From Castellaniella sp. S9 (GTDB lineage: Bacteria > Pseudomonadota > Gammaproteobacteria > Burkholderiales > Burkholderiaceae_B): a stretch of DNA of 39,457 bases. The notes beneath the pieces were generated by a model, which was not told the DNA's origin, ran no database searches, and worked only from the letters and a program-made list of their open reading frames with translations. The stretch is taken from the NCBI RefSeq assembly GCF_027257175.1, contig NZ_JAPFGD010000014.1:1-39457 (forward strand), in the 5' to 3' direction. Of this stretch, positions 12,442 to 35,666 are shown in pieces (the stretch's first letter is position 1; each line of letters begins with the position of its first letter). The position numbers and the translations under genes are program-made.

Positions 12442-12470
12442 TTGACTATTTTAGAACTGAATTCTAAAAT
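12442..12470 (+). promoter_or_regulatory. Sigma70 promoter with embedded palindromic operator (IclR-type box 1)
   Basis: The -35 hexamer is TTGACT (12442-12447) and the -10 hexamer is TAAAAT (12465-12470), with a 17-bp spacer. A palindrome with 9-bp arms ATTTTAGAA (12448-12456) and TTCTAAAAT (12462-12470) fills the spacer and covers the -10. Its core AGAA-CTGAA-TTCT (12453-12465) recurs at four other places in this block. Position implies repression by steric blocking of RNA polymerase. The gene served is the acyl-CoA dehydrogenase at 12531. Confidence 0.85.
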
Positions 12471-12530
12471 CAAGGCCTTCTTCCCGGACGGCCGCCGGCT
12501 CTCCTTTCGACTTCCCACCGAGACTCATCC

Positions 12531-13700
12531 ATGGATCTGAACCTGTCCTCCGAGCAAACCATGCTGGTAGAAACCGTCCGCAAATTCGTCGAGCAGGAAT
12601 TGCTGCCGCTCGAGGAAGGCATCGAAGAAACGGGCAGTCTGGATCCGGCGCTGGCCCGCGCGCTGTTCGAGAAATCCCGCGCCAACGGCATGTATGCCAT
12701 GAACATCCCCGAGGAATTCGGCGGCGGCGGACTCTCGGCGCTGGACACCATGCTGGTCGAGGAACAGTTCGGCCATGCCAAGGACATCCTGATCCGGCGC
12801 GCCTTCGGCAATGTGTACGAGGTTCTGCTGGGCGCCAACGAGATCCAGCGCGAGCGCTGGCTGCTGCCGGCGGTGCGCGGCGACCGCACCTGCTCGATCG
12901 CCATCACCGAGCCGGGCGCCGGCTCGGACGCCGCCGCGATCCGCACCCGCGCCGTGCGCCAGGACGAGGGCTGGCGGCTCAAGGGCAGCAAGCACTTCAT
13001 CAGCGACGGCGAGTTCTCGGATTTCTTCGTCGTCTCGGCGGTGACCGATCCCGAGGCGGGTTCGCGCGGGATTTCGCTGTTCCTGGTGGACAAGGATCTG
13101 CCCGGGCTGGTGGTCGGGCGCAATCAGAAAATGATGGGCTTGACCGGCACCAGCCACGTCGAGCTGCATTTCGACGACGTGGCCCTGGACGGCGACTGCC
13201 TGCTGGGCGCCGAAGGCACCGGGTTCGGCCAGATCCTGCAGACCCTGGGCCGGGTGCGCCTGGCCCAGGTGTGCGCGCGGGCGGTGGGCAAGGCGACGCG
13301 CCTGCTGAACCTGATGGTGTCCTATGCCAATGACCGCAAGCAGTTCGGCCAGGCGATCGGGGATTTCCAGATGATCCAGCAGATGCTCGCCGACAGCGCC
13401 ATCGAAATCAACGCGGCGCGCTGGATGGTGTGGGATGCCGCCCAGGACATCGACAACGGCAAGGATCCGCGCGAAAAGATTTCGATGGCCAAGGTGTACG
13501 CCTCGGAGATGCTGGGCCGCGTGGCCGACCGCGCCGTCCAGGTCTATGGCGGCATGGGCTATTGCGCGGACCTGCCCGTCGAGCGCCTATACCGCGATGC
13601 GCGGATATTCCGCATCTTCGACGGGACCTCGGAGGTCCACCGCAGCGTCGTGGCCCGCAGCCTGCGCAAGCATGGCGAGGCCTTGTACGGCACCCTGTAG
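12531..13700 (+). CDS. Acyl-CoA dehydrogenase family flavoenzyme
   Basis: The protein (389 residues, normal family length) is an FAD-dependent acyl-CoA dehydrogenase, which introduces an alpha-beta double bond into a CoA thioester. The N-terminal helical domain (MDLNLSSEQTMLVETVRKFV), the middle beta domain with the FAD-binding SIAITEPGAGSDAAAIRT, and the C-terminal helical domain with YANDRKQFGQAI and QVYGGMGY are all present. At the position of the medium-chain enzyme's catalytic Glu (usually YEGT) it has RIFDGTSEVHR, so D364 is the candidate base, as in ACAD10/11-like groups. It is alone in its transcription unit behind a promoter with a strong operator. The substrate is not evident. A CoA ester made by the CoA-transferases of this block is the best guess from context. 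Confidence 0.9.
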   Translation: MDLNLSSEQTMLVETVRKFVEQELLPLEEGIEETGSLDPALARALFEKSRANGMYAMNIPEEFGGGGLSALDTMLVEEQFGHAKDILIRRAFGNVYEVLLGANEIQRERWLLPAVRGDRTCSIAITEPGAGSDAAAIRTRAVRQDEGWRLKGSKHFISDGEFSDFFVVSAVTDPEAGSRGISLFLVDKDLPGLVVGRNQKMMGLTGTSHVELHFDDVALDGDCLLGAEGTGFGQILQTLGRVRLAQVCARAVGKATRLLNLMVSYANDRKQFGQAIGDFQMIQQMLADSAIEINAARWMVWDAAQDIDNGKDPREKISMAKVYASEMLGRVADRAVQVYGGMGYCADLPVERLYRDARIFRIFDGTSEVHRSVVARSLRKHGEALYGTL

Positions 13701-13722
13701 GGCGCCGGCCGCCAGACAGAAC

Positions 13723-13738
13723 GGGGGCTCAGGCCCCC
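13723..13738. terminator. Small hairpin between convergent genes
   Basis: The arms GGGGGC (13723-13728) and GCCCCC (13733-13738) pair around TCAG. The hairpin overlaps the last codons of the minus-strand gene and lies just after the acyl-CoA dehydrogenase stop. There is no T-run on either side, so terminator function is uncertain. Confidence 0.3.
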
Positions 13739-14532
13739 AGATAGCGGCGTGCGCCGTCGATGCAGCGGCGCGCCCATTCCTCGTGGCCGAGCTTGGCCAG
13801 GGCGGCGTCGTTCGGGATTTCCAGGGAATAGGGGACGGCCGGCATGGCGTCCAGGATTGCGCGGATGTCGATGCCGCCTTCGCCCGGCACCTCGCGCTCG
13901 CTGCGCGCGGTGTGGATCAGGCCCTCGACCGTATCCGGGATCTCGGCGGCCGCATCGCAGACTTGGGCGAACCGGAACCATTCACGGGGCAGGCCGCGCA
14001 GTTCGTCCACGCTGTCGCGCGAACGGTCGAAATGCAGCGTGTCGACCACGATGCCCGCGTTGGGGCGGTTCACCGCGCGCAGCACCTGGGCCGCCGCCCG
14101 CAGGTCGGGCGTCTCGGTCCAGCTGGGATATTCCAGGCCCACCGACAGGTTCAGCGGCCGGGCCATGTCGCACAGGCGCGCGAACCGCTCGGTGGCGCGG
14201 CCGCGGTCGGGATCGGGCAGCTGGGCGAGGATGTGCTGCGCGCCCAGTTCGGCGGCGGTGTCGAGGACGGCGGCGTAGGTCTCGGGCTCGATCTCGGGCG
14301 GCATGCGCGCCAGTTCGATATCGAGCACGCGCACGCCGGTGTCGGCGAGCAGGGCCTGGACCTCCTTGAGCATTGCGCGGTCGTCCTGCAGGGCGAACAC
14401 GTGCTCCGTCGGGGTGACGGCCGTCAACCGCAGGCTGACGAAAGCGTAGCCGGTGCGCTGCGCGATGCGGATCATCTCGGTCGGAGGGCAGGTGAGCACC
14501 GTCAGATGCGCGAGCGAAAACTGGAAGGCCAT
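13729..14532 (-). CDS. TIM-barrel protein, sugar phosphate isomerase/3-dehydroshikimate dehydratase-like
   Basis: This 267-residue protein belongs to the xylose-isomerase-like TIM-barrel superfamily (COG1082 type). Four residues in expected metal-ligand strands are present: E134 (VGLEYPS), D164 (IVVDTLHF), Q190 (RFAQVCDA) and E238 (YSLEIPND). From memory, P. putida QuiC1, a 3-dehydroshikimate dehydratase, uses E134, D165, Q191 and E239. The near-identical spacing makes dehydroshikimate dehydratase a real candidate, although cyclitol or keto-sugar isomerases share the fold and similar ligands. It lacks the C-terminal HPPD-like domain of QuiC1. It is transcribed alone, away from aroE, from a promoter with an operator at 14573-14585, which supports a link to the IclR regulator at the far end of the block. 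Confidence 0.8.
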   Translation of the reverse strand: MAFQFSLAHLTVLTCPPTEMIRIAQRTGYAFVSLRLTAVTPTEHVFALQDDRAMLKEVQALLADTGVRVLDIELARMPPEIEPETYAAVLDTAAELGAQHILAQLPDPDRGRATERFARLCDMARPLNLSVGLEYPSWTETPDLRAAAQVLRAVNRPNAGIVVDTLHFDRSRDSVDELRGLPREWFRFAQVCDAAAEIPDTVEGLIHTARSEREVPGEGGIDIRAILDAMPAVPYSLEIPNDAALAKLGHEEWARRCIDGARRYLGA

Positions 14533-14567
14533 GGGAAGGATTCCTCGAAGAAGGCTGTTTGCCGATT

Positions 14568-14596
14568 AATATAGAATTAAATTCTGTACCACGCAA
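14568..14596 (-). promoter_or_regulatory. Minus-strand sigma70 promoter with operator in the spacer (IclR-type box 2)
   Basis: On the minus strand, TTGCGT (14591-14596) and TATATT (14568-14573) form -35 and -10 hexamers with a 17-bp spacer. The palindrome AGAATTAAATTCT (14573-14585) lies within that spacer and touches the -10. It serves the TIM-barrel gene that starts at 14532. The core is AGAA-N5-TTCT, as in the other boxes. Confidence 0.8.
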
Positions 14597-14636
14597 CATC
14601 AAAACAAAATCCAGTTCCCGCCATTACGCCCCCGGG

Positions 14637-14665
14637 TTTACGCTAAGATACCCGCACCGTATGCT
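14637..14665 (+). promoter_or_regulatory. Possible promoter of aroE
   Basis: TTTACG (14637-14642) and TATGCT (14660-14665) are spaced by 17 bp and end 34 nt before the aroE start. Each hexamer matches only four of six consensus positions, and no operator overlaps it. If real, aroE would escape the IclR control seen at the divergent gene. Confidence 0.3.
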
Positions 14666-14699
14666 TACACCTTTTCCCTCGCGCCCGCAGGAGCGTGCC

Positions 14700-15509
14700 A
14701 TGACAGACCGCTATGCCGTGATCGGCAATCCGATCGCCCAATCCAAGTCCCCCATCCTGCATACCGCCTTTGCCCGCCAGTTCGGGCATGACATTCACTA
14801 TGGCACCTTGCTGGCGACGCACGAGACCTTCGCCGACACCGTGCGCCGGTTCGTTGCCGAAGGCGGCAAGGGCATGAACGTCACCGCGCCGTTCAAGCTC
14901 GATGCCCTGGAGTTCGCCGATACGCTGTCCGAGCGCGCACGCTCGGCCCAGGCCATCAATACCCTGAAGTTCGAACCGGACGGCGTCCATGGCGACAACA
15001 CCGACGGGGTCGGCCTGGTCGGCGACATCCAGGACCGCCTGGGCGTCGCCCTCGAGGGCCGGCGGCTGCTGGTGATCGGGGCGGGCGGCGCGGCGCGCGG
15101 CATCCTGCTGCCCTTGCTGCAGGCCGGGCCCGACTACCTGCTGCTGGTCAATCGCACCGAGCACAAGGCCCACGACCTGCTGGGTGAACGGCGCCGGGCG
15201 GGCAAGGTCGAGGCCGGTCCGCTGGCGGCGGTCGCCGGCGGGCGTTTTGACGTGGTGATCAACGCCACCTCGGCCAGCCTGACGGGCGCTCATCTGCCAT
15301 TGGCCGACAGCGTGTTTGCCCCGGGTTCGCTCGCCTACGACCTGGTCTACGGCGACGGCGATACGGCGTTCATGACCGACGCCCGCGCATTGGGGGCGGC
15401 CCGGGTGTCGGACGGCCTGGGCATGCTGGTCGGCCAGGCGGCCGAGTCCTATCGCCTGTGGCGCGGCAGCCGGCCCGACGTCGAGCCCGTCATGGCAATG
15501 CTGAGGTAG
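14700..15509 (+). CDS. aroE: Shikimate dehydrogenase, biosynthetic type
   Basis: This 269-residue protein reduces 3-dehydroshikimate to shikimate with NADPH in aromatic amino acid synthesis. It has the substrate site SKSP (S15, S17), NVTAPFK with the catalytic K66, NTDG with D102, the nucleotide loop GAGGAARG and INATSAS. The start at 14700 is supported by GGAGCG upstream. A longer frame from 14559 would run through the promoter region. It is followed after 13 nt by a DMT permease, so the two are probably one unit. A second, different family member lies at 29447-30349. This one looks biosynthetic, although its place inside a catabolic block leaves room for a catabolic role. Confidence 0.93.
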   Translation: MTDRYAVIGNPIAQSKSPILHTAFARQFGHDIHYGTLLATHETFADTVRRFVAEGGKGMNVTAPFKLDALEFADTLSERARSAQAINTLKFEPDGVHGDNTDGVGLVGDIQDRLGVALEGRRLLVIGAGGAARGILLPLLQAGPDYLLLVNRTEHKAHDLLGERRRAGKVEAGPLAAVAGGRFDVVINATSASLTGAHLPLADSVFAPGSLAYDLVYGDGDTAFMTDARALGAARVSDGLGMLVGQAAESYRLWRGSRPDVEPVMAMLR

Positions 15510-15522
15510 GCGCCGGGAAACT

Positions 15523-16428
15523 ATGGACACTCAAGGCGACGCGCGGCCCTGGCTGGGGCCCGCGCTCATGTGCCTGGCCGGCCTCTGTTTCGCCTTCCTG
15601 GATACCGCGACCAAGTATCTCGCTGAATTCTATCCCCTGACCCAGGTCATCTGGGCGCGCTATACGGGGCAGACCCTGGTCCTGGCCCTGGTCTTTGCAC
15701 CGCGCATGGGCTGGCGCGTGCTGCATGCCCACAGCTATCCCCTGCAGCTGCTGCGCGGCCTGTGCCTGTTCGGCGCCAGCATGCTGGTGATCAATGGCTT
15801 CGCGCGTCTGCCGCTGACCGAGACCTCGGCCATTCTGTTCCTGGCCCCGTTGATCGTCACGCTGCTGTCGGGGCTGCTGCTCAAGGAAAAGGCCCGGCGC
15901 ATGGATTGGGTGGCCGTGTGTTGCGGCTTTGCCGGGGTGCTGATCATCGCCCGGCCGGGCGGCGGCCTGCTGACCTGGGCGATCCTGTTTCCCATCGGCA
16001 CAGCCGTCTGCAATGCCCTCTATCAGATCCTGACCCGCTCGACGCGCGCCTCCGAGCATCCGGTCACCAGCAACCTGTATACCGGCATGGTGGGTGCGGT
16101 GGTGCTCCTGCCGGCGATGCCGTATGTCTGGCAGCCCATGAGTTGGATCGATCTGTTGCTGGTCGGCGGCGCCGGCTGCATTGCCGCCACCGGTCACATG
16201 GTGATCACCAAGGCCTTGTCGTATTCGCCCGCTGCGACCTTGGGCCCCTACAGCTATTTCCAGCTCGTCTTCGTGGCCTTCCTGGGATGGCAGGTCTTCG
16301 GCACGGTGCCCGATGCCGTGTCCTGGATCGGCATCCTGGTCATCGCCGCCGGCGGCCTGATGATTTCGGTGCGGCGCGTGTTGCAATATGGGTCGTCAAA
16401 ATTTCATTCCATAAAGCGGTTGCGTTGA
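15523..16428 (+). CDS. DMT superfamily (EamA) permease
   Basis: This 301-residue inner-membrane protein has about ten hydrophobic segments and two internally similar EamA halves (for example LGPALMCLAGLCFAFLDTAT in the first half and VGGAGCIAATGHMVITKALS in the second). The C-terminus is basic (SVRRVLQYGSSKFHSIKRLR). Family members export or import small metabolites such as amino acids. The substrate cannot be read from sequence. It starts 13 nt after aroE and ends just before the promoter of the next operon. A hydroaromatic or aromatic metabolite is possible from the neighbour but unproven. Confidence 0.88.
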   Translation: MDTQGDARPWLGPALMCLAGLCFAFLDTATKYLAEFYPLTQVIWARYTGQTLVLALVFAPRMGWRVLHAHSYPLQLLRGLCLFGASMLVINGFARLPLTETSAILFLAPLIVTLLSGLLLKEKARRMDWVAVCCGFAGVLIIARPGGGLLTWAILFPIGTAVCNALYQILTRSTRASEHPVTSNLYTGMVGAVVLLPAMPYVWQPMSWIDLLLVGGAGCIAATGHMVITKALSYSPAATLGPYSYFQLVFVAFLGWQVFGTVPDAVSWIGILVIAAGGLMISVRRVLQYGSSKFHSIKRLR

Positions 16429-16448
16429 ATAGAATTGTGTTCTAAAGT
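16420..16448 (+). promoter_or_regulatory. Sigma70 promoter with operator in the spacer (IclR-type box 3)
   Basis: TTGCGT (16420-16425) and TAAAGT (16443-16448) are -35 and -10 hexamers with a 17-bp spacer. TAGAATTGTGTTCTA (16430-16444), with perfect 5-bp arms around TTGTG, lies in the spacer and touches the -10. It starts within the last bases of the DMT gene and probably drives the operon from 16495 to 25008. Confidence 0.82.
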
Positions 16449-16494
16449 ACGTCCGATCACCCGATGCTCATCGGGTTGTGACGAGAGGAATGCA

Positions 16495-17697
16495 ATGACG
16501 AAGGCCTTCGAGGGTATCCGCGTATTGGATTTGACGAACGTCCTGGCGGGCCCCTTTTGCGCGTATCAGCTTGCTTTGCAGGGAGCCGACGTGATCAAGG
16601 TCGAGGTCCCCGGCACGGGCGACCTCGCGCGTCAACTGGGTGCCGATGCCACGCTGAACGCCAATGGTATGGGCGCCTCGTTCCTCGCGCAAAACGGCGG
16701 CAAGCGCTCGATGACGCTCAACCTCAAGTCCGAAGCCGGCCGCGAAGTCCTGCTGCGCCTGGTGCGCAGCGCCGACGTGCTGATCGAGAATTTCCGCCCC
16801 GGGGTCATGGATCGGCTGGGCGTCGGCTATGAGGTACTGAAGGCGGCCAACCCGCGCCTGGTGTACTGCGCGATCTCTGGATTCGGGCAGAACGGCCCCA
16901 TGCGCGGCGCACCCGCCTACGACCAGATCGTCCAGGGCTTGTCCGGCGTGATGAGCATCACAGGGTCCGAAGCCTCGGCGCCGCTGCGCGTGGGTTATCC
17001 CATGGCGGACACCATCGGCGGCATCACTGCGGCCTTCGCCGTCGCCAGCGCGCTGGTCCGCCAGCAGCGCACGGGCGAGGGCGACTTCATCGACGTCTCG
17101 ATGCTCGATTCCACCATCGTCACCATGGGCTGGGTCGTGTCCAATTACCTCATCGCGGGGGTGGTGCCCCGCCCGATGGGCAATGAAAACTTCACCGCCG
17201 TGCCCTCCGGGACGTTCCGCACGGGCGACGGGCTGCTGAACATCGCCGCCAACAAGCAAGAACAATTCGAGGCCCTCATGCGCGTCATCGGCCGGCCCGA
17301 GCTGATCGAGGACGCGCGTTTCTCGCGTCGCGAGACGCGCAAGCAGAATCGGGCCGCCCTGACCATCGAGCTCGAACAGGCGCTTGCCGCCAAGTCCGCG
17401 CGGGACTGGGCCGACATACTCTCCGGCATTGGCGTGCCCGCCGGCCCGGTCCTGACCGTGCCCGAGGCGCTGGCCCTGCCTCAGATCCAGGAACGCGAAC
17501 TGACGGCGCGCTTCGAAGGCGTGCCGGGCGTGGATCGCCCCGTCGAGGTGGTGCGCGCCGGCTTCAAGATGGCGGGCGGCGACCCCGACGTCGAGACGCC
17601 GCCGCCGGCGCTGGGCGCCCACACGGACCAGATTCTCCAGGACCTGGGATATGCCCGGGACGAGATCGGCGCCATGCGCGCCAATGACGTGGTATAG
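16495..17697 (+). CDS. Class III CoA-transferase (CaiB/BaiF/Frc family)
   Basis: This 400-residue protein belongs to family III CoA-transferases, which move CoA between carboxylic acids through an aspartyl-anhydride enzyme intermediate. The N-terminus has FEGIRVLDLTNVLAGPFCAYQLALQGADVIKVE, the family's opening signature. The candidate catalytic Asp lies in GYPMADTIGG, the position of D169 in formyl-CoA transferase. GEGDFIDVSMLDS follows. ATG at 16495 has GAGAGGAA upstream. It is the first gene of the operon controlled by box 3 and is followed two bases later by a citrate-synthase-fold lyase gene. Activation of an acid to its CoA ester for that lyase is the likely role. Confidence 0.92.
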   Translation: MTKAFEGIRVLDLTNVLAGPFCAYQLALQGADVIKVEVPGTGDLARQLGADATLNANGMGASFLAQNGGKRSMTLNLKSEAGREVLLRLVRSADVLIENFRPGVMDRLGVGYEVLKAANPRLVYCAISGFGQNGPMRGAPAYDQIVQGLSGVMSITGSEASAPLRVGYPMADTIGGITAAFAVASALVRQQRTGEGDFIDVSMLDSTIVTMGWVVSNYLIAGVVPRPMGNENFTAVPSGTFRTGDGLLNIAANKQEQFEALMRVIGRPELIEDARFSRRETRKQNRAALTIELEQALAAKSARDWADILSGIGVPAGPVLTVPEALALPQIQERELTARFEGVPGVDRPVEVVRAGFKMAGGDPDVETPPPALGAHTDQILQDLGYARDEIGAMRANDVV

Positions 17698-17699
17698 AT

Positions 17700-18533
17700 A
17701 TGACTCGCAGCCAGACACCGCAGGCGGATGAACGGATCGACGAGGCCAGTCGCTGGTGGTCCACCGCCATCATCGACATCGAGCCGGGCAAGATCGGTAT
17801 CCGCGGCTATCCCATCCAGGATTTGATCGGCACGGTCAGCTTTGCCCAGATGATCTGGCTGATGCTGCGCGGCACCCTGCCCACCGAGCCCCAGGCCCGC
17901 CTGTTCGAGGCGGCGCTGGTCTCGGCCGTGGACCACGGGCCGCACGCCCCGTCGATCGCCATCTCGCGCATGGCCATCAGCTGCGGGGTAGACCTGAACG
18001 GCGCCTTGGGGTCGGCGGTCAACGTGCTGGACGATGTCCACGGCGGCGCCGGCCAGCAGTGCATGGCGCTCTACCTGGATTGCCGCGCGCGCGCCCAGCA
18101 GGGCGCCGACGATCCGATCCAGCAGGCCCTGGACGCCTACCGCGCCGAACACGGCAAGATCGTGCCCGGCTTCGGCCACCGCTTCCATCCGCGCGACCCG
18201 CGCGCCACCCGCCTGCTGGCCCTGGTCGACGAGGCCGTCGCCGAGGGCGTGGTGACCGGGGAATTCGCCGCCATCGGCCGCGGGGTCGAGGCCGTCCTGG
18301 AACGGGAAAAAGGGCGCCACATTCCCATGAACATCGATGGCGTGACCGCCGTCATCTATTCCGAGCTGGGCTTTGCCCCCGAACTGGGCCGCGGGATTTT
18401 CCTGCTGTCGCGCTCCGTCGGCATCCTCGCCCATGCCTGGGAGCAGATGCAGGAAGGCCGCCGCATCAAGGGGCCCATGCCGCCCAGCATCCCTTACGCC
18501 TATACCGGCCCTGAAACGGGATCCGTCAAGTAA
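17700..18533 (+). CDS. Short citrate-synthase-fold protein, citryl-CoA-lyase-like
   Basis: The protein has 277 residues, far shorter than citrate synthase (about 430), and matches the compact citryl-CoA lyase type. The catalytic triad positions are recognisable: H114 in DDVHGGAG, H160 in GFGHRFHPRDPRA, and D213 in MNIDGVTA. Such enzymes cleave or form a C-C bond between acetyl-CoA (or propionyl-CoA) and a keto acid. Coupling to the upstream CoA-transferase gene (2-nt gap) suggests an acid is first made into a CoA ester and then split to acetyl-CoA plus a keto acid. The exact substrate (citrate, citramalate or a larger hydroxy acid) is not determined. The end carries GRRIKGPMPPSIPY, typical of this subgroup. 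Confidence 0.82.
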   Translation: MTRSQTPQADERIDEASRWWSTAIIDIEPGKIGIRGYPIQDLIGTVSFAQMIWLMLRGTLPTEPQARLFEAALVSAVDHGPHAPSIAISRMAISCGVDLNGALGSAVNVLDDVHGGAGQQCMALYLDCRARAQQGADDPIQQALDAYRAEHGKIVPGFGHRFHPRDPRATRLLALVDEAVAEGVVTGEFAAIGRGVEAVLEREKGRHIPMNIDGVTAVIYSELGFAPELGRGIFLLSRSVGILAHAWEQMQEGRRIKGPMPPSIPYAYTGPETGSVK

Positions 18534-18548
18534 GCCAACGGAGACATC

Positions 18549-20309
18549 ATGCAAGAATTGATCTCGCACCAACTGGTCCGCTACCTCGAGGAACGCGGCG
18601 TCGAGCACATCTTCGGCCTGTGCGGCCACACCAACATCGCCGTCCTGACGGCGCTGGAGGGCAGTTCGATCCGCTTCGTCAATTCGCGCCATGAGCAGAT
18701 CGCCGCGCACGCGGCCGATGGCTATGCGCGCATGCGCAAAAAGGCGGCGGTCGTCCTCAGTCACCTCGGCCCCGGCCTGACCAACGCCTCCACCGGCATC
18801 GCCAACGCGGCCCTGGATTCGATCCCCGTGGTGGTCATCGCCGGCGATGTGCCCAGCCACTATCACGGCAAGCACCCCCACCAGGAGGTCAACCTGCACG
18901 CCGACGCGGCGCAGTGGGAAATCTACCGGCCCTTCGTCAAGCGCGCCTGGCGCGTGGACCGTCCCGACCTGTTCCCCGAGATCATCGAAAAGGCCTTCCA
19001 ACTGGCCGAAAGCGGCCGGCCCGGCCCCGTGCTGGTGTCGGTGCCCATGGACATCTTCTCGATGAAGATCGACACGGCCCTGTTCGAGCGCCTGCGGGCC
19101 CACACCAAGCAATTGGAAAAACCCTCGATCGACGACGTGCTGGCGCGGCGGATCGTCCAGGAACTGATCGATGCCGAACGGCCCGTCATCTACGCCGGCG
19201 GCGGCGTCATCCTGTCCGACGCGGCGCAGGAACTCGCCGAACTGGTCGACCATCTGGGCCTGCCCGTCGCCCACTCGTTGATGGGCAAGGGCGTGCTGCC
19301 CGACGACCATCCCCTGACGCTGGGCATGACCGGATTCTGGGGCACGCAGTTCGTCAATGACGCCTGCCGCGAGGCCGACCTGGTGCTGGGCCTGGGCACG
19401 CGCTTTACCGAGGCGGATTGCAGCTCGTGGGAAAACGAGTACACCTTCAGCTTCCCGCCGACCCGCCTGATCCACATCGACATCGATCCGGCCGAGATCG
19501 GCCGCAACTATCCCGCGCAAATCGGTGCCGTGGCCGACCTGCGCCAGGCCCTCAAGGTCCTCAACCGCGTGGCCCGCGAGATGCTGCCCGAGCCGCGCCG
19601 CAACGAGCCCCTGCGCCAGCGCATCGCCGACTACCGCCGCGAGTTCGCAGCCGGCAACGTCGAGGCCATCCAGAGCAACGACTTCCCCATGATGCCCGAG
19701 CGCATCCTGGCCGAGGTGCGCGAGGTCCTGCCGCGCGACGCCATCATCACCACGGACGTGGGCTGGAACAAGAACGGCGTGGGCCAGCAGTTCCCCGTCT
19801 ACGAACCGGGCAGCATCCTGACGCCCGGCGGCTATGCCACCATGGGGTTCGGCGCGCCCGGCGCCCTGGGCGCCAAGCTCGCCTGCCCCGACCGCGTGGT
19901 GGTGTCCCTGGTGGGCGACGGCGGTTTCGGCCAGAACCCGGCGGTGCTGGCGACGGCGGTCGAGGAAAACATCCCCGTGGTGTGGGTGGTGATGAACAAT
20001 TGCGCCTTCGGCACCATCGCCGGTCTGCAGAAAGCGCACTATGGCACCACGCTGGGCACGGTTTTCGTCAAGGACGGCAAACCCTACACCCCCGATTTTG
20101 CGGCGATCGCACGGGCCTATGGCGCCGAGGGCGTCCAGATCCAGAGCGCTTCAGAATTCAAGGATGCGCTCACGCATGCTATAAGCAGCAAGAAACCATT
20201 CGTCATCGATGTCTTGATGCGTAATAATCCAGTTCCCACGTCAGGACACTGGAACATTCTGGACATCTACTCACCCGGCCAAAAGATTTCCCATGTCAGC
20301 GTAGATTGA
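18549..20309 (+). CDS. Thiamine-diphosphate-dependent enzyme (IlvB/acetolactate-synthase-like)
   Basis: This 586-residue protein has the three-domain ThDP fold. The N-terminal pyrimidine-binding domain has the activating glutamate E49 in NSRHEQIAAHAADGYARM. A middle domain (about 190-330) follows. The C-terminal diphosphate domain has GDG at 456-458 and NN at 483-484. The family includes acetolactate synthase, oxalyl-CoA decarboxylase, benzoylformate decarboxylase and the inositol-pathway hydrolase IolD, and I cannot place it within these. The gene follows the lyase gene after 15 nt with GGAGA as ribosome binding site. A carboligation/lyase or decarboxylation step on a keto acid or cyclic dione is plausible. 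Biosynthetic acetolactate synthase is less likely because no small subunit gene follows. Confidence 0.87.
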   Translation: MQELISHQLVRYLEERGVEHIFGLCGHTNIAVLTALEGSSIRFVNSRHEQIAAHAADGYARMRKKAAVVLSHLGPGLTNASTGIANAALDSIPVVVIAGDVPSHYHGKHPHQEVNLHADAAQWEIYRPFVKRAWRVDRPDLFPEIIEKAFQLAESGRPGPVLVSVPMDIFSMKIDTALFERLRAHTKQLEKPSIDDVLARRIVQELIDAERPVIYAGGGVILSDAAQELAELVDHLGLPVAHSLMGKGVLPDDHPLTLGMTGFWGTQFVNDACREADLVLGLGTRFTEADCSSWENEYTFSFPPTRLIHIDIDPAEIGRNYPAQIGAVADLRQALKVLNRVAREMLPEPRRNEPLRQRIADYRREFAAGNVEAIQSNDFPMMPERILAEVREVLPRDAIITTDVGWNKNGVGQQFPVYEPGSILTPGGYATMGFGAPGALGAKLACPDRVVVSLVGDGGFGQNPAVLATAVEENIPVVWVVMNNCAFGTIAGLQKAHYGTTLGTVFVKDGKPYTPDFAAIARAYGAEGVQIQSASEFKDALTHAISSKKPFVIDVLMRNNPVPTSGHWNILDIYSPGQKISHVSVD

Positions 20310-20356
20310 CGGTTCAACCACGCAGCAGCCACACGACTTCACACAAGGAGACATGC

Positions 20357-21514
20357 ATGAAGACGCACACACTGTTCAAAAAATACGCCCTCGCGGGCGC
20401 CCTCGCCCTGGCGACGGCCGGCCTGGCCGCGCCGTCGCTGGCGGCCGACACGCTCAAAATCGCCGAAGTCGTCGAACTGACCGGACCGGGCACCACGGCG
20501 GGCACCAACTTCAAGAACGGTGCGGACCTCGCCATCAAGGAAATCAACGCCGCCGGCGGCGTCCTGGGGCGCCAGATCGTCACCACCTCGGCTGACACCC
20601 AGACCAACCCCGGAATCGCCAAGGGCCTGTCCCAGAAGGCGATCGACGATGACGCCTTCGCCGTGTTCGGCCCGGTGTTCTCGGGCTCGATCATGGTCAG
20701 CATGGCCACCACCGAGGCCGCCAAGGTGCCCAACTTCATCGGCGGCGAGGCTGCATCCATCACCCAGCAAGGCAACCCCTACGTTTTTCGCACCAGCCTG
20801 ACCCAGGCTGACGCCATGCCCAAGGTGGCGCGTTATCTGGACGGCCGCAAGGACATCAACAGCATCGCCGTCATCTTCGTGAACAACGACTTCGGCAAGG
20901 GCGGGCGCGACGCCATCATCGAGGCGCTCAAGAGCACCCACGTGAAGGTCGTCGAGGACATCTCGACCTCCACCGGCCAGGTGGACTTCAGTTCGGCGGT
21001 GCTCAAGGCCAAGCAAAGCAACGCCGATGCGATCTTCGCCTACCTCAACGAAGAAGAATCCGCCCGCCTGCTGCGCGAGCTGAAAAAGCAAGGTTGGGAC
21101 AAGCCCATCATCGGTGAGACCACCCTCACCGGCCAGAAGGTGATCGACCTGGCCGGCCCCGCCGCCGAGGGCGCCATCGCCCACGTCGGCCTCACCGTGG
21201 ACGCCCCGGGCATGCAGAAGTTCGGTGCCGATTTCCAGAAGGCCTATGGATACGTGTCCGACCACAACGGCATCAAGGGCTACACCGGCATCTACATCCT
21301 GAAGGCCGCGATCGAGAAGGCCGGCAAGTTCGACCGCGAGCTGGTGACCAAGACCCTGCACGGCATCCATATCTCGACCAAGGACCATCCGGGCGTCCTG
21401 ATGGATGTGTCGATCGACGACAAGGGCGACCTGGATCGCGAAAGCTTCCTGGTGCAAGTGGTCGACGGCAAGCAGAAAGTCATCGAGGTCCTGCCTGCGC
21501 TGGGCAAGAAGTAA
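20357..21514 (+). CDS. Periplasmic substrate-binding protein of a LIV-type ABC importer
   Basis: This 385-residue protein has a Sec signal peptide (MKTHTLFKKYALAGALALAT, cleavage probably after SLAA) and then a Peripla_BP_6 ligand-binding fold (KIAEVVELTGPGTTAGTNFKNGADLAI). Proteins of this type bind branched-chain amino acids, amides, aromatic acids or short carboxylates. I chose ATG 20357, the frame with the signal peptide. An overlapping ATG at 20353 is out of frame. AAGGAG lies 7 nt upstream. It follows the ThDP gene by 47 nt with no clear promoter between them, so it probably belongs to the same operon. The substrate is likely the compound degraded by this block. Confidence 0.93.
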   Translation: MKTHTLFKKYALAGALALATAGLAAPSLAADTLKIAEVVELTGPGTTAGTNFKNGADLAIKEINAAGGVLGRQIVTTSADTQTNPGIAKGLSQKAIDDDAFAVFGPVFSGSIMVSMATTEAAKVPNFIGGEAASITQQGNPYVFRTSLTQADAMPKVARYLDGRKDINSIAVIFVNNDFGKGGRDAIIEALKSTHVKVVEDISTSTGQVDFSSAVLKAKQSNADAIFAYLNEEESARLLRELKKQGWDKPIIGETTLTGQKVIDLAGPAAEGAIAHVGLTVDAPGMQKFGADFQKAYGYVSDHNGIKGYTGIYILKAAIEKAGKFDRELVTKTLHGIHISTKDHPGVLMDVSIDDKGDLDRESFLVQVVDGKQKVIEVLPALGKK

Positions 21515-21526
21515 GCCGGCACTTGG

Positions 21527-21562
21527 CCGCCGCTCCCCGGGATCCATTCCCGCGGGCGGCGG
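21527..21562 (+). other. GC-rich stem-loop between binding-protein and permease genes
   Basis: CCGCCGC (21527-21533) can pair with GCGGCGG (21556-21562), with further pairing inside. The 129-nt gap holds no other gene. Such structures after a binding-protein gene often stabilise its mRNA or reduce read-through, so the binding protein is made in excess. That role is an inference here. Confidence 0.3.
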
Positions 21563-21643
21563 ACGGACGGCCCCGGCGTCACGCGCCATGGCCGCCGCCC
21601 GAGACGGGATGCCGACCCACCATCCGTATAGGCGCAAGCCCAA

Positions 21644-22519: not shown

Positions 22520-22530
22520 GGGGGACGGCC

Positions 22531-24257: not shown

Positions 24258-24261
24258 CATC

Positions 24262-25017: not shown

Positions 25018-25037
25018 GAGGGCGTGCGCGCGCCCTC
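25018..25037. terminator. Hairpin between convergent livF and TetR genes
   Basis: GAGGGCG (25018-25024) and CGCCCTC (25031-25037) form a perfect 7-bp stem with a TGCGCG loop, overlapping the TetR stop codon. There is no T-run, but the place between convergent genes suits a bidirectional transcription end. Confidence 0.4.
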
Positions 25038-25716: not shown

Positions 25717-25719
25717 AGG

Positions 25720-25731: not shown

Positions 25732-25825
25732 TCAATGGATCACATTTGGATTATTGCATTTAATCACGATGACCGCCCGCCTAGAATGGGATGGTCATAA
25801 GGCGGACGACGGCCTGGAGGACGGG

Positions 25826-30349: not shown

Positions 30350-30361
30350 GGTTCCATGGAT

Positions 30362-30381: not shown

Positions 30382-30386
30382 GCGGC

Positions 30387-30416: not shown

Positions 30417-30444
30417 ACGGAACGGGCTCAGGAATTTCCTGGGC

Positions 30445-30476
30445 TTGAATTATTCTGTTTGACAGAATATGATTCT
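30445..30476 (+). promoter_or_regulatory. Promoter with overlapping palindromes (IclR-type box 4)
   Basis: TTGAAT (30445-30450) and TATGAT (30468-30473) are -35 and -10 with a 17-bp spacer. The spacer holds the palindrome ATTCTGTTTGACAGAAT (30452-30468). AGAATATGATTCT (30464-30476) overlaps the -10 and is the same AGAA-N5-TTCT box as elsewhere. Three half-sites in a row recall the three-repeat operator of the IclR-family regulator PcaU. It serves the Gfo/Idh oxidoreductase at 30518. Confidence 0.75.
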
Positions 30477-30517
30477 ATTGGAAAGAACTGAATCCAAGGC
30501 TTCCGAGACGCTCGCCC

Positions 30518-31576
30518 ATGACTTCGAAATCCAAGATCGCCATGCTGGGCGCCGGCCTGATCGGGCGCCAGCACATCCTGCGCATCCAGGCCAGCCCCTC
30601 TTGCGAACTGGCCGCCGTGGTCGATCCGGCGCCCACCGCGCGCGCGGTGGCCAACGAGGCCGGCGTCCCGTATTACCCCAGCCTGGCCGCCCTGTTCGCG
30701 GCGGGCCGCCCCGACGGCGTCATCATCGGCACGCCCAACGCGCTGCATGTGCAGCAGGCCCTGGAATGCCTGGCCGCCGGCGTCCCCGCCCTCATCGAAA
30801 AACCCGTGGCCCACACCCTCGCCGAGGGCGAGCGCCTCGTGCGCGCGCTGGACGGCGCCGACGTGCCGTTCCTGGTCGGGCATCATCGCGCCCACAGCCC
30901 CATCATGGCGCTGGCGCGCGAGGTGGTGCGCAGCGGCCGTCTGGGCCGCCTGGTTGCCGTCAGCGGCAGCGCCATGTTCTGCAAGCCGGATGACTACTTC
31001 GCCGAGGCGCCCTGGCGGCGCGAGCCCGGCGGCGGCCCCGTCCTGATCAACATGATCCACGAGATCGACAACCTGCGCGCGCTGTGCGGCGAGGTCGTCG
31101 AGGTCCAGGCCATCATGTCCAATGCCGTGCGCGGATACGCCGTCGAGGATACGGCGGCCCTGGCCCTGCGCTTCGACGGTGGGGTGCTGGGCACTTTCCT
31201 GCTGTCCGACACCGCCGCCTCGCCCCGCAGCTGGGAGCAGACCTCACAGGAAAACAAGGCCTACGCCACCTACCCGGACGAGGATTGCTACATCCTGGCG
31301 GGCACCATGGGGTCGCTTGCCGTGCCGACCATGCGGCTGCGCAGCTATGCCGACGCGGCCGACCGTTCGTGGTGGAAACCCTTTCAGACCGAGGCCCTGG
31401 ACCTGCGCCGCGAGGATCCCCTGGCCCTCCAGATCGAGCATTTCGCCGCCGTCATCCGTGGCGAGGCCGCCCCCCTGGTCAGCGTGCGCGACGGCGTGCA
31501 GAACCTGCGCGTGGTCGAGGCCATCGGCCGTGCCGCCCGCGAGGGCCGCTCCGTATCCGTGCCGCCCCCGGCCTGA
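30518..31576 (+). CDS. Gfo/Idh/MocA family NAD(P)-dependent oxidoreductase
   Basis: This 352-residue protein has an N-terminal Rossmann domain (KIAMLGAGLIGRQH, GxGxxG) with the cofactor/catalytic motif EKP at 94-96. The C-terminal substrate domain has INMIHEIDNLR, where D184 and H181 are the expected catalytic residues. Members oxidise sugars, inositols and related cyclic polyols. A cyclitol-like hydroaromatic acid would be a reasonable substrate in this context, but the sequence does not show it. It is the first gene of a pair with an aldehyde dehydrogenase, controlled from the promoter with box 4. Confidence 0.9.
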   Translation: MTSKSKIAMLGAGLIGRQHILRIQASPSCELAAVVDPAPTARAVANEAGVPYYPSLAALFAAGRPDGVIIGTPNALHVQQALECLAAGVPALIEKPVAHTLAEGERLVRALDGADVPFLVGHHRAHSPIMALAREVVRSGRLGRLVAVSGSAMFCKPDDYFAEAPWRREPGGGPVLINMIHEIDNLRALCGEVVEVQAIMSNAVRGYAVEDTAALALRFDGGVLGTFLLSDTAASPRSWEQTSQENKAYATYPDEDCYILAGTMGSLAVPTMRLRSYADAADRSWWKPFQTEALDLRREDPLALQIEHFAAVIRGEAAPLVSVRDGVQNLRVVEAIGRAAREGRSVSVPPPA

Positions 31577-31615
31577 GGCCGACACCCATTTGATTCAGAC
31601 GAGGTGCAAATCCCC

Positions 31616-33091
31616 ATGTCCCTGCCCCAATACCAGCATTTCATCAACGGCGCCTACGTGCCGCCCGCAACGGGCGAATATTTCGACACCGAGGACCCCT
31701 ACACGGGCGAGGCCTGGGCGCACATCGCCCGCGGCAGCGCCGCCGACGTGGATGCGGCCGTGGCCGCGGCCAAGGCCGCCTTCGAGGGACCCTGGGGCGC
31801 GCTGACCCCCACCCGCCGCGGGCAGTTGCTGCGCCGGCTGGCCGACCTGGTGATCGAGCACGCCCCCCGCCTGGCCGAAATCGAGCAGCGCGACAACGGC
31901 AAGCTGTCCTCCGAGGTCGTCGCACAGGTGCGCTACATGGGCGAGTACTTCCATTACTACGCCGGCCTGGCCGACAAGGTGGAAAGCAAGGTCATTCCCA
32001 CCGACAAACCGGGGGTGTTCACCTACACGCGCTACGAGGCCAAGGGCGTGGTGGCCATCATCACCCCCTGGAATTCGCCGCTGACGCTCACCAGCTGGAA
32101 GCTCGCGCCGGCCCTGGCGGCCGGTTGCACGGCCGTGATCAAGCCCTCGGAATTCACCTCGGCCTCGATGCTGGAATTCGCCGCCTTGTTCGAGCAGGCG
32201 GGCTTCCCGCCGGGCGTGGTCAACGTGGTGACCGGCTTCGGCCCCGAGGTCGGCGAGCCCCTGGTGTCGCACCCCGACGTGCCCCACATCGGCTTCACGG
32301 GCGGGGAGCTGGCCGGCAAGCGCATCTACGAGGCCGCGGCCCGCAACCTGAAGACCGTCACCCTGGAACTGGGCGGCAAGTCGCCCAACATCATTTTCGA
32401 CGACGCCGACCTGGACCAGGCCGTCAAGGGCGTGGTGTCCGGGATCTTTGCCGCCTCGGGTCAAAGCTGCCAGGCCGGATCGCGCGTGCTGGTCCAGGAA
32501 GGCATACACGACGAGCTGGTCCGCCGCCTGATCGATTTCGTCGGCACGGCAAAACTCGGCGATCCGACCCAGCCCGACACCCAGATCGGGCCGATCGCCA
32601 CCCGCCCGCAGTTCGAGAAAATCCTGGGCTACATCCAGGTCGCGCGTGACGAGGGCGCGCAGTGCGTGCTGGGCGGCAAGGCGCGCAGCGACCTGGGTGC
32701 GGGCCAGTTCATCGAGCCCACGATCTTTACCGGCGTGGACAACCGCATGCGCATCGCCCAAGAGGAAGTCTTCGGTCCGGTGCTGTGCATCATTCCCTTC
32801 AAGGACGAGGCCGATGCCATCCGCATCGGCAACGACATCCTCTATGGCCTGGCCGGGGCGGTCTGGACACGCAGCCTGCACCGCGCGCTGTACGTGACCG
32901 AACGCCTGAAGGCCGGCACGGTCTGGGTCAATAATTATCGCGCCACCAGCGTCACCACGCCGTTCGGCGGGTTCAAGCGCTCGGGCATCGGCCGCGAGTC
33001 GGGCTCCGACGCCATCTACGAATACCTGGATACCAAGAGCGTCTGGATTTCCACCGACCTGGACGTGCCCAACCCCTTCATTCGGCGCTGA
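31616..33091 (+). CDS. NAD(P)-dependent aldehyde dehydrogenase
   Basis: This 491-residue member of the ALDH superfamily oxidises an aldehyde to an acid. The catalytic nucleophile is C285 in SGQSCQAGSR and the general base is E251 in LELGGKSPN. GVVAIITPWNSPLTLTSWKL and EEVFGPVLCIIPF are also standard. The cofactor loop reads FTGGELAGK instead of the common FTGSTxxGK. I chose ATG 31616, 11 nt after GAGG. A GTG at 31604 would add four residues. It follows the Gfo/Idh gene by 39 nt and ends at the convergent TIM-barrel gene. Confidence 0.93.
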   Translation: MSLPQYQHFINGAYVPPATGEYFDTEDPYTGEAWAHIARGSAADVDAAVAAAKAAFEGPWGALTPTRRGQLLRRLADLVIEHAPRLAEIEQRDNGKLSSEVVAQVRYMGEYFHYYAGLADKVESKVIPTDKPGVFTYTRYEAKGVVAIITPWNSPLTLTSWKLAPALAAGCTAVIKPSEFTSASMLEFAALFEQAGFPPGVVNVVTGFGPEVGEPLVSHPDVPHIGFTGGELAGKRIYEAAARNLKTVTLELGGKSPNIIFDDADLDQAVKGVVSGIFAASGQSCQAGSRVLVQEGIHDELVRRLIDFVGTAKLGDPTQPDTQIGPIATRPQFEKILGYIQVARDEGAQCVLGGKARSDLGAGQFIEPTIFTGVDNRMRIAQEEVFGPVLCIIPFKDEADAIRIGNDILYGLAGAVWTRSLHRALYVTERLKAGTVWVNNYRATSVTTPFGGFKRSGIGRESGSDAIYEYLDTKSVWISTDLDVPNPFIRR

Positions 33092-33098
33092 CGCCTCG

Positions 33099-33110
33099 GC
33101 CCCCGGGGGC
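33099..33110. terminator. GC palindrome between convergent genes
   Basis: GCCCCCGGGGGC is a perfect 12-bp palindrome in the 30-nt gap between the aldehyde dehydrogenase and the convergent TIM-barrel gene. There is no loop and no T-run, so a termination role is only suggested by position. Confidence 0.25.
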
Positions 33111-33121
33111 TGGGCCGGCCC

Positions 33122-33988
33122 TCAACCCAGCCGCAGACGGTTGAGCGGCAGGCGCCGCCGCAGGACCTGGGTATTGACCCAGGCCATGGAGCGCGCGCCC
33201 AGGCGCGCCACGGCGTGCGCCGGCAATTGCCGGTAGTCCTCGTTGAACACCAGCAGGCTGTAGTCGCCCGCGTATCCCATCCAGTCCACGTGCCGCACGA
33301 AGGCCGCGACCGCCTCATGCAGCACGCCGTCGCCGGGAAACACCCGCATGTGGTCGGCGTTGCCCTCGCTGCGTTCCTGGAAGACCGGCACGCTGAAATC
33401 GGCAAGCTGCACGAGCGAGATCTTTTCCGGCGGGATGTCGTTGAGGATGTCGAGGGCCTGGCCCCCGGCGATGAAATGGAAGGCATCCAGCACCAGGCCG
33501 AGGTTGGCGTGGTCGACGCGAACCACCAGGTCCCAGGCGCTGCGGGTGTCCGACACCGCGCGGCCCCAAGGAATGGCCTTGAAGCCCACGCGCACGCCCG
33601 TCGGGACGGCCAGGTTGGCGAGCTTGCGCAGGTCGGCCTCGGCGCGGCCGGGGTCGTGCTGATGGCCGGCCGCCGCCGAGGCGCACACCAGCAGCAGCGG
33701 CGCCCCCACGTCGACGCATACGTCCAGCAGCGCCTTGACGATGTCCAGCTTGTATTCATGCGCCGGGCCGCTCATGCCCTCGTAGTTGCGCATCAGCTGC
33801 AGGCCGGTGACCTGCAGCTTGCTGTCGCGCACCAGCTTGACCGCCGCCCGGTAGCCGCGCGGGTGGTGGGCCAGGTCGCGCGCCCACAACATGACTTGCG
33901 AGAACCCCGCCGCCTCGGCCGCCGCGAGGCGTTCCTCGAGCGGGCCGGCCATGCAGGCCAGATCGATGCCGAAGCTCTCGCGGTTCAA
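33122..33988 (-). CDS. TIM-barrel protein, dehydroshikimate-dehydratase-like but with altered metal site
   Basis: This 288-residue protein resembles the N-terminal TIM barrel of QuiC-type 3-dehydroshikimate dehydratases (AIPWGRAVSDTRSAW, LGLVLDAFHF, ISLVQLADFSVP, RVFPGDGVL). Of the four expected ligands, D168 and Q194 are kept. The first is K137 (FKAIPWG, normally EALAWG) and the last is L246 (YSLLVFNED, normally SLEIFND). Spacing 137-168-194 equals that recalled for QuiC1 (134-165-191). Activity as a normal metal-dependent dehydratase is therefore doubtful. I chose the TTG at 33988, which overlaps the upstream stop (TTGA) and follows GGGGGGCG. The longer frame runs through the upstream gene. 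It is the third gene of the iclR operon. Confidence 0.82.
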   Translation of the reverse strand: MNRESFGIDLACMAGPLEERLAAAEAAGFSQVMLWARDLAHHPRGYRAAVKLVRDSKLQVTGLQLMRNYEGMSGPAHEYKLDIVKALLDVCVDVGAPLLLVCASAAAGHQHDPGRAEADLRKLANLAVPTGVRVGFKAIPWGRAVSDTRSAWDLVVRVDHANLGLVLDAFHFIAGGQALDILNDIPPEKISLVQLADFSVPVFQERSEGNADHMRVFPGDGVLHEAVAAFVRHVDWMGYAGDYSLLVFNEDYRQLPAHAVARLGARSMAWVNTQVLRRRLPLNRLRLG

Positions 33989-34884
33989 GTCGCGCCCCCC
34001 GCGGCCTCGTCGTCGGGCGCCGTATGGTGCACGAACTCGAAATTCACGTCGTAGGACATGGCCGCGGTAATCGCGCCGTGGCTGTCCGGACGGATGAAGG
34101 CATTGTCCTGGAAGGGTACGCCGCGCGCCTCGAGTGCGCGCACAGTGCCCGGCACGTCGGGCGAGCCGAAGGCCAGCCGCGCGAATTGCTCGTACCATTC
34201 GGTGTCGTACAGCGCGTCGCCCACGGGCTCGACCAGCTGCAGGTAGAAACGCGCACAGGGGCTTTGCAGAATGGTGCCGTGCGGCAGGATGCCGAAATGC
34301 GTGTCGGGCGGCAGCACGCGGAACCCCAGCAACTGGCCGTAGAAGTCGATCCATTCGGCGCTGCGGTCCGGGTTGATGTACTGCACCACGCCGAACACGT
34401 GCAGGCCCGGCACGACGGGCTCGACTGCGCGCTCGTCGCCGAGGTAGTCGAAATCCACGTCGTAAATCGAGAACGGGCGGCGATGGTCCACCAGATAGAT
34501 GATCGAGTCGCCCACGCCGTGGATGCCAGGGATGTTCAATTCCATGGCGCCTGCGCGCGTCGGGATCGGCCAGGCTCCCCATTGCATGCAGCGTTCGTAG
34601 GCCTGGTTGGCGTCGGCCACGCGCACGGCGATGGCGCTGATCTGGTTGTCCTCCTCGGGGTGCGCCAGGGCGGACAGCGAGACCGGGTCCGCATTGATGA
34701 TGACGTTGATCGGCCCCTGGCGGTAGAGGAAGACCTCGCGCGAGCGGTGGCGGGCGATCAGGCGAAACCCCAGTTGCGCCAGGACGGCGCCCAGCTCATC
34801 GGGGTGGCGCGACAAATACTCGATGAACTCGATGCCACGCATGCCCAGGGGATTGGCCTCGGCGGCTGGATCGGCGGCGCTCAT
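33985..34884 (-). CDS. VOC-superfamily protein, HPPD-like (QuiC C-terminal-domain-like)
   Basis: This 299-residue protein has two VOC modules. The first (about 17-145) contains MRGIEFIEYLSRHPDELGAV and LGFRLIARHRSREVFLYRQG then PINVIINAD. The second (about 160-290) contains LHVFGVVQYINPDRSAEWID and FYGQLLGF, with the end DVNFEFVHH. RHRSxxVxLxRQGxINxxxN is strongly reminiscent of the C-terminal HPPD-like half of QuiC-type dehydroshikimate dehydratases. A free-standing HPPD-like dioxygenase is the alternative. Its start overlaps the iclR stop (ATGA) and its stop overlaps the TTG start of the TIM-barrel gene, so all three are translationally coupled. The gene order, VOC then TIM, is the reverse of the fused enzyme. 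Confidence 0.83.
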   Translation of the reverse strand: MSAADPAAEANPLGMRGIEFIEYLSRHPDELGAVLAQLGFRLIARHRSREVFLYRQGPINVIINADPVSLSALAHPEEDNQISAIAVRVADANQAYERCMQWGAWPIPTRAGAMELNIPGIHGVGDSIIYLVDHRRPFSIYDVDFDYLGDERAVEPVVPGLHVFGVVQYINPDRSAEWIDFYGQLLGFRVLPPDTHFGILPHGTILQSPCARFYLQLVEPVGDALYDTEWYEQFARLAFGSPDVPGTVRALEARGVPFQDNAFIRPDSHGAITAAMSYDVNFEFVHHTAPDDEAAGGAT

Positions 34885-35591
34885 CGGGCCGGCCCGTCCG
34901 TCCCGGGCCAGCGCCCGCCCAGCGCCTCGCTGAGGGTCGCGGCGTGCTGCGCCAGGATGGGGATGATCTGGGCCACCTTGTCGTCGCTGAAACGGTACTT
35001 GGGACCCGAGACCGAGATCACGCCCGCCAGTTCCTGCCCGATCGAGAACACCGGCGCGGCCACCGCGCCGATCTCGGGGTCGCGCTCGCCCACCGAGACC
35101 TCGTGGAGGGAGCGCCGGATGGCATCGTACTTGGCGCCGGTTTCGCCGCTGAAGGCCAGCATCACGTGGCCCGATGCGCCGATGCGCAGCGGCAGCGAAT
35201 CGCCTTCGTGCACCGAATCGCGCACCGAGCGCGGCGCATCGACCCGGTGCAGGCAGACGCGCGAGTCCTTTTCCCGCACGAAGAACGACGCGCCCTCCTG
35301 CAGTTCGTTGACGAGCTTGCGCAGCACGGGCACCACGAGGTCGGCGCTGCGGAAGTGCTTTTGATACAGCGATCCCAGGTATAGGGGCTTGGGCCCGAGG
35401 CGGTAGGTGCCGTCCTCGAGGCGCCGCAGGTAGCCGAATTTCTCGAGGGATTCGGCCAGGCGCAGCGTGGTGCTCTTGTAGAAGCCCGAGCGCTTGGAGA
35501 TGTCGGTCAGGGTCAGACTGCCGCCGCCGTCGATGAATACGTCCAGTATGGTCAGCGCGCGGTCCACCGCGGCAACGCCTTCACGAGTCAT
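34881..35591 (-). CDS. IclR family transcriptional regulator
   Basis: This 236-residue regulator has the N-terminal winged helix-turn-helix (AAVDRALTILDVFIDGGGSL then TLTDISKRSGFYKSTTLRLA) and the C-terminal effector domain (about 75-225) with LRIGASGHVMLAFSGE and GVISVSGPKYRF. IclR regulators of aromatic and quinate catabolism (PcaR, PcaU, PobR) bind palindromes and can repress or activate. It heads a coupled operon with the VOC and TIM genes. An AGAA-type half-site cluster lies in its own promoter region, and matching boxes occur at four other promoters in the block. It is therefore the strongest candidate for master regulator of the block. The effector could be a pathway intermediate. Confidence 0.93.
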   Translation of the reverse strand: MTREGVAAVDRALTILDVFIDGGGSLTLTDISKRSGFYKSTTLRLAESLEKFGYLRRLEDGTYRLGPKPLYLGSLYQKHFRSADLVVPVLRKLVNELQEGASFFVREKDSRVCLHRVDAPRSVRDSVHEGDSLPLRIGASGHVMLAFSGETGAKYDAIRRSLHEVSVGERDPEIGAVAAPVFSIGQELAGVISVSGPKYRFSDDKVAQIIPILAQHAATLSEALGGRWPGTDGPAR

Positions 35592-35640
35592 GTTCTGGCT
35601 CCATCGCAGTCTGCGAAAATTGGGATGTAAATATCATAAC

Positions 35641-35666
35641 CGAATCGTGTTCTATTTTTGTGTTCT
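35641..35666. promoter_or_regulatory. Operator-like half-site cluster at the iclR promoter (box 5)
   Basis: CGAATCGTGTTCT (35641-35653) is a near match to AGAA-N5-TTCT with one altered base. GTGTTCT is repeated at 35647-35653 and 35660-35666. On the minus strand a -10 TATGAT (35633-35638) lies just downstream, while the -35 region is poor. A palindrome plus a direct repeat is the layout described for PcaU. Autoregulation of iclR is implied. Confidence 0.6.

Follow-up and report, generated by a model that had tools for sequence, protein, structure and literature searches.

A shared palindromic box at five promoters of a Castellaniella catabolic block as the predicted operator of a locally encoded IclR-family regulator

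The operators of IclR-family regulators are divided, in the accessible portion of PMC8222616 (to which all statements on published operators made below refer), into group 1, GTTYC-N7-GRAAC, and group 2, GRAAC-N3-4-GTTYC (consensus TGRAACAN1-2TGTTYCA), with the three-box sites of PcaU, PobR and HmgR combining both; tandem sites lie 18-22 nt apart, site centres mostly fall at -20 to -80, and the family includes repressors, activators and dual regulators (PMC8222616). The same source gives ATTCC-N7(5)-GGAAT for GenR of the Corynebacterium glutamicum gentisate pathway (PMC8222616). Here, a palindromic box, AGAA-N5-TTCT, is described that recurs in a 39,457-nt stretch of Castellaniella sp. S9 DNA (contig NZ_JAPFGD010000014.1, positions 1 to 39,457, hereafter “the window”), which corresponds to contig C6 of a 3.8 Mb genome, makes up about 1% of it, and holds a catabolic block of about 23 kb at 12.5-35.6 kb (window 12293-35948) flanked by rpoC and rpsL-rpsG-fusA (these four gene names come from translations read by eye). 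Judging from the sequence comparisons presented below, this box is very probably the core dyad of the operator of the 236-aa IclR-family protein encoded within the block at 34881-35591 (minus strand).

An earlier note on this DNA had reported four exact copies of the box and a fifth with one mismatch, all of which were found as stated, and no further occurrence with up to one mismatch exists in the window. Box 1 (AGAACTGAATTCT, 12453-12465, plus strand) is centred 72 bp before the acdA ATG and falls within the spacer that separates TTGACT (12442-12447) from TAAAAT (12465-12470) in the acdA promoter, while box 2 (14573-14585, minus strand) lies between timA (minus strand) and aroE2 (plus strand), its centre 47 bp before the timA ATG, within the spacer of a minus-strand TTGCGT/TATATT. 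Box 3 (AGAATTGTGTTCT, 16431-16443, plus strand) is centred 58 bp before caiB1, within the spacer of TTGCGT/TAAAGT; box 4 (30464-30476, plus strand) overlaps the -10 of gfo (TTGAAT at 30445-30450, TATGAT at 30468-30473); and box 5 (35641-35653, minus strand), the one-base variant, reads AGAACACGATTCG toward iclR, is centred 56 bp before the iclR ATG, and is found 50 bp upstream of that gene, just upstream of a possible -10, TATGAT. The inner positions are Y and R in all five, giving AGAAY-N3-RTTCT (with one mismatch in box 5). The promoter placement claimed previously, with the box filling the 17-nt spacer at acdA, timA and caiB1 and overlapping the -10 at gfo, holds, whereas the description of the first three as good sigma70 promoters is true of acdA and not of the two others, as TTGCGT has three of the six consensus bases. 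The acdA and gfo promoters are near consensus, and they alone were listed by a promoter scan, which listed none at iclR.

At gfo, where box 4 alone had been taken into account, a longer four-half-site operator had been overlooked: positions 30452-30488 read RTTCT-N7-AGAAY-N3-RTTCT-N7-AGAAY, with box 4 as the centre and both N7 half-sites exact, and can be viewed as two tandem 17-bp palindromes, centres 20 bp apart, that cover the spacer and the -10. Exact RTTCT-N7-AGAAY occurs three times in the genome, twice at gfo. The position of the third half-site is taken at timA and caiB1 by GTTGC, the -35 element, matching at four of five letters, and matches at two of five at acdA and iclR. Among 29 scanned sites (hand-chosen, inclusive of four-box homologues and not independent), RTTYY-type half-sites 7 nt upstream reach at least four of five letters at 21 (all five at 6), many of the four-letter cases being the -35 GTTGC itself, and half-sites 7 nt downstream do so at 10 (all five at 7). 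A second peak, 20 nt upstream (five of five letters at 11 of the 29 sites, at least four at 14), can be traced to, without being fully explained by, an RTTCY plus A-tract that is conserved at caiB1 (16405-16425) and timA (14591-14611), where it precedes the -35 and lies about 20 nt ahead of the box, and that may be an UP element or an additional half-site.

The order and spacing of xGAAY-N3-RTTCx, as well as the further half-site 7 nt off, are like those of the group 2 and three-box operators, with the group 2 spacing present at five places, one of them with one mismatch (PMC8222616). The 20-bp distance between the tandem centres at gfo and the box centres 47-72 bp before start codons also resemble published IclR sites, the tandem spacing and the N7 third half-site being exact at gfo only (PMC8222616). 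Unlike in group 2, however, the outer base is A/T rather than G/C (AGAAY for GRAAC) in all five boxes, and the gfo operator has four alternating half-sites, unlike the three-box and tandem sites described there (PMC8222616). GenR shares the N7 spacing and has a half-site near-identical to that of RTTCT-N7-AGAAY, but shows C/G at the penultimate position where T/A is seen here, and belongs to a different host phylum and a different pathway (PMC8222616). As the spacings match, the letters do so only partly, and the regulator is an IclR protein, the operator would be expected to work in an IclR-like manner with a half-site of its own.

When spacings of 0-12 nt were tested in seven intergenic stretches, only the 5-nt one occurred, at four of them, and neither 300 shuffles of the window nor 2000 rounds of shuffling the seven stretches ever yielded four or more exact copies. 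Four of the 18 exact copies in the genome fall inside the window (P about 3e-5), and the tight form, AGAAYNNNRTTCT, has 8 genome copies (3 for the reversed control), half of them in the block (P 8e-7). The concern raised in the earlier note, that the motif might be common away from the block, thus does not apply to the tight form, three of whose four non-block copies are inside reading frames (C2, C3 and C33), the remaining one being intergenic and beside a different iclR gene. A genome scan with TAGAAYNNNRTTCTA (up to two mismatches) returned 53 matches versus 79 for the reversed pattern, which is background, so further regulon members cannot be named from it; zero-mismatch copies among the matches listed were three, two in the block and one at C1:421842.

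Ten genomes of the genus were searched, and an iclR orthologue was detected in three: the window's own genome, G002 and G007, the latter two possessing the same block, also beside rpoC. G006 holds the block as well, but since its contig stops about 80 bases past the gfo box, it allows no statement on iclR. Across these four genomes, 15 of the 32 AGAAYNNNRTTCT copies lie in the block. All three relatives keep the exact box at timA/aroE2, at caiB1 and in the aroE1-gfo/aldh gap, along with the gfo array; the iclR box of G002 and G007 shows the identical ...TTCG one-base departure seen in box 5, and an extra box is found by a second aroE2-like gene in G006 and G007. Further afield, Aromatoleum and Thauera retain the box upstream of caiB1 and of aldh/iclR, the caiB1 box (exact in Aromatoleum, with one mismatch in Thauera) being in the same register behind GTTGC and 17 nt before TATTAT. 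No close homologue of block genes was found near the box copies of G008 (C2) and G009 (the G008 stretch has just 29-31% matches to iclR, the thiamine diphosphate (ThDP) enzyme and livK, about 4-7 kb from the box), and no block gene adjoins the box copies in G005, G006:C8 and G007:C1 near 980 kb.

The regulator itself scores above the Pfam cut-offs for both HTH_IclR (52.4 bits, cut-off 22) and IclR_C (62.5 bits, cut-off 24), and its Castellaniella defragrans orthologue shares 83% identity with it. Its best NCBIfam match is PcaR/PcaU/PobR (TIGR02431, E 2.6e-24), at 85.9 bits versus a cut-off of 284.75, and so it is not a member of that subfamily by score, in addition to which the operators listed for those regulators are GTTCG-type (PMC8222616). 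Of 12 orthologue loci (at least 64% identity), 10 carry the core GAAYNNNRTTC within 400 nt upstream of iclR, a count equivalent to about six independent cases given that L018 and L019 are the same contig, L021 and L027 give similar matches, and L020, L022 and L023 are close relatives. L021, a Thauera contig, and L027, a metagenome-assembled genome labelled Thiobacillus, agree in their matches and very nearly in the coordinates of these, and the latter label may be wrong. Among distant homologues (30-49% identity; 28 recovered as loci from 48 matches listed outside the genus), an exact tight box lies within 400 nt upstream in three, with about 0.04 expected at equal base frequencies, and the loose box AGAAATTATTTCT lies upstream of an alphaproteobacterial homologue (48% identical) from Neoroseomonas. 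Of the IclR proteins with a Tyr at the start of the recognition helix (Y-K/P-S-T), 7 of 13 are flanked within about 1.5 kb on either side by a box, or by an array having no more than one mismatch, versus 1 of 17 for the others (Fisher one-sided 0.005, for a residue picked after viewing the alignment and with one of the 13 having entered through its array).

The four-half-site array provides an additional link. Among 399 genomes of the order it is exact in 5 and present with up to one mismatch in 11, and 8 of these 11 are among the 39 genomes with a detected IclR homologue (P 5.5e-7; at least 39 of the 399 bear one, with at most 7 candidates scored per genome); with the own genus excluded, 6 of 9 array genomes have a homologue (P 3e-5), and the reversed control array gave 0 among the matches listed. 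Outside the genus, five of the six arrays in homologue-bearing genomes are within 1.1 kb of the homologue, either about 90-205 bp away from where the homologue match starts (G147, G334 and G359) or about 1.05 kb from it, before a neighbouring gene (G242 and G212), and that of G167 precedes a caiB1 homologue at the edge of a contig. Conservation, operator architecture and joint occurrence with IclR homologues thereby support the assignment of the box to the local IclR that the earlier note proposed.

Several observations weigh against this assignment. No box is present upstream of two Zoogloea orthologues (66 and 65% identical), which are the exceptions to the linkage between the box and its IclR gene across genomes; 25 of the 28 distant homologue loci lack a tight box within 400 nt upstream; three of the eleven array genomes (G098, G306 and G367, with one mismatch each, and probably representing chance occurrences) have no detected IclR homologue; and the six genus genomes without a detected orthologue or block (G006 excluded) hold 18 AGAAYNNNRTTCT copies versus 10 for the reversed control. 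The acdA box is exact in none of G002, G006 and G007, the last two having the one-mismatch form AGACCTGAGTTCT and the 130 nt inspected for G002 showing none. When compared with the published consensus sequences, the boxes match that of group 2 at 7-10 of 14 letters, with positions 2 and 14 differing in all five, and the gfo palindromes match that of group 1 at 12 and 11 of 17 letters, a score of 12 being no rarity in the block, where 48 of 23500 positions reach it (PMC8222616). Finally, five boxes at one mismatch are ordinary, as 37 of 100 window shuffles reach five, and the loose box is at background level genome-wide (18 exact copies versus 17 for the reversed control pattern); these last two observations would also be expected if the boxes were chance palindromes in A+T-rich promoter DNA, an explanation that is scarcely credible in view of the clustering, the spacing specificity and the conservation across genera. 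With the one-mismatch count being ordinary, the weight rests on the four exact copies and their conservation.

As for which other protein might bind, the TetR-family regulator (25036-25716, minus strand) is the other regulator found in the block and is conserved with it in G002, G006 and G007, yet it is very unlikely to be the binder: no box is found near tetR in the window or its relatives, TetR homologues have the box in 0 of 17 outside loci (0 of 18 when the window's own is included), and the Aromatoleum and Thauera stretches have boxes and no tetR homologue at E 1e-20. The candidate was rejected, as the box goes with the IclR gene and not with tetR across genomes. It is likewise improbable, if to a lesser degree, that a different regulator, for example an IclR paralogue, binds the boxes alone or together with the local IclR. 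Such a role would fit the intergenic TAGAACTGTGTTCTA copy at C1:421843, which adjoins another iclR gene and a polar amino-acid-type ATP-binding cassette (ABC) transporter; however, the arrays of other genomes show linkage to local-IclR homologues, the C1 copy is without exact N7 half-sites, and the other GGAA/TTCC palindromes of that promoter may, as read from the sequence, be the paralogue's own sites. At this place (L055:3544-5269, G000:C1 near 421843), a second iclR and the transporter are divergently oriented, and the DNA between them holds several GGAA/TTCC palindromes as well as one perfect TAGAACTGTGTTCTA. The best reading therefore remains that the local IclR is predicted to bind the block promoters and its own.

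Mechanistically, an IclR dimer would bind AGAAY-N3-RTTCT, and a second dimer could use half-sites 7 nt to either side, a possibility that would be complete at gfo, with the -35 element GTTGC occupying the third half-site position at timA and caiB1. Effector-free IclR would then cover the spacer and the -10 and exclude RNA polymerase, an effector, perhaps a quinate/shikimate-type acid or intermediate, would release it, and the weaker box 5 at iclR would provide autoregulation. The protein thus probably acts as a repressor. PcaR of Pseudomonas is an activator although it is bound over the -35 and -10, so site position alone does not give the sign of control, and members of the IclR family do activate from positions similar to those seen here. 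For this reason, and because two of the promoters are weak, the same protein may instead act from the same sites as an activator, or as a dual regulator depending on promoter and effector, like members of the PcaR/PcaU/PobR branch, a reading that we consider rather unlikely. It would agree with the best NCBIfam match (albeit below cut-off), with the poor -35 elements (three of six bases) of two target promoters, and with repressors, activators and dual regulators all being known in the family (PMC8222616), whereas repression is favoured by the constant register of the boxes, within the spacer or on the -10, where occlusion usually takes place, and by the near-consensus acdA and gfo promoters. 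A broader proposal, held tentatively and at somewhat less than even confidence, is that this IclR clade reads a modular AGAAY/RTTCT array with two to four half-sites per promoter, in which dimers would pair across 3 or 7 nt, the number of half-sites would set the strength of control, and the recognition-helix Tyr would go with the array.

The block encodes an acyl-CoA (coenzyme A) dehydrogenase, TIM-barrel enzymes, shikimate dehydrogenase-like genes, family III CoA transferases, a citryl-CoA lyase, a ThDP enzyme, a type II dehydroquinase, a Gfo/Idh/MocA oxidoreductase, an aldehyde dehydrogenase, a QuiC-like pair, a branched-chain-type ABC transporter, one TetR gene and one IclR gene (the transporter and the aldehyde dehydrogenase were named by reading translations), and its substrate may be of the quinate/shikimate type. 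The proposed targets comprise acdA (acyl-CoA dehydrogenase, 12531-13700, plus strand); timA (13729-14532, minus strand), a TIM-barrel enzyme that is weakly QuiC-like (E 9e-6, far under the family cut-off); the genes at 16495-25008 (plus strand; caiB1, citryl-CoA lyase, the ThDP enzyme and ABC transporter genes), whose close spacing suggests one operon; and the Gfo/Idh/MocA oxidoreductase and aldehyde dehydrogenase operon (30518-33091, plus strand). The divergently oriented aroE2 (14700-15509, plus strand, start codon chosen by reading), a shikimate dehydrogenase scoring over two family cut-offs, is a possible target. Downstream of iclR, the two-gene QuiC-like pair (33122-34884, minus strand) is probably co-transcribed with it, given the overlap or near-overlap of the genes; the pair looks like a QuiC-like 3-dehydroshikimate dehydratase split into a TIM-barrel gene and an HPPD-like gene. 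A ketopantoate reductase-like protein with a fused C-terminal glyoxalase-type domain is encoded at 25772-27103, and an Rfam search of the window returned tRNA only.

Literature searches found no paper on Castellaniella and IclR, none on the IclR family in conjunction with CoA transferase, transporter, binding motif and Betaproteobacteria/Aromatoleum, and nothing usable, in the portions of the sources accessible, on citryl-CoA lyase and CoA transferase; those on quinate/shikimate and on half-sites both led to PMC8222616. The palindrome before the five units is very probably the predicted site of one local IclR, and the scattered degradation genes are, therefore, most likely switched together, so that the finding adds one more case to an established type of control, with the gfo operator being somewhat unusual. 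For about 20 loosely annotated genes, this yields a single regulon that can be tested, with the regulator named and the operators predicted to the base, and the natural operators of one IclR protein, bearing two, three (degenerate) or four half-sites, could serve to test the alternative dimer pairing proposed for the family.

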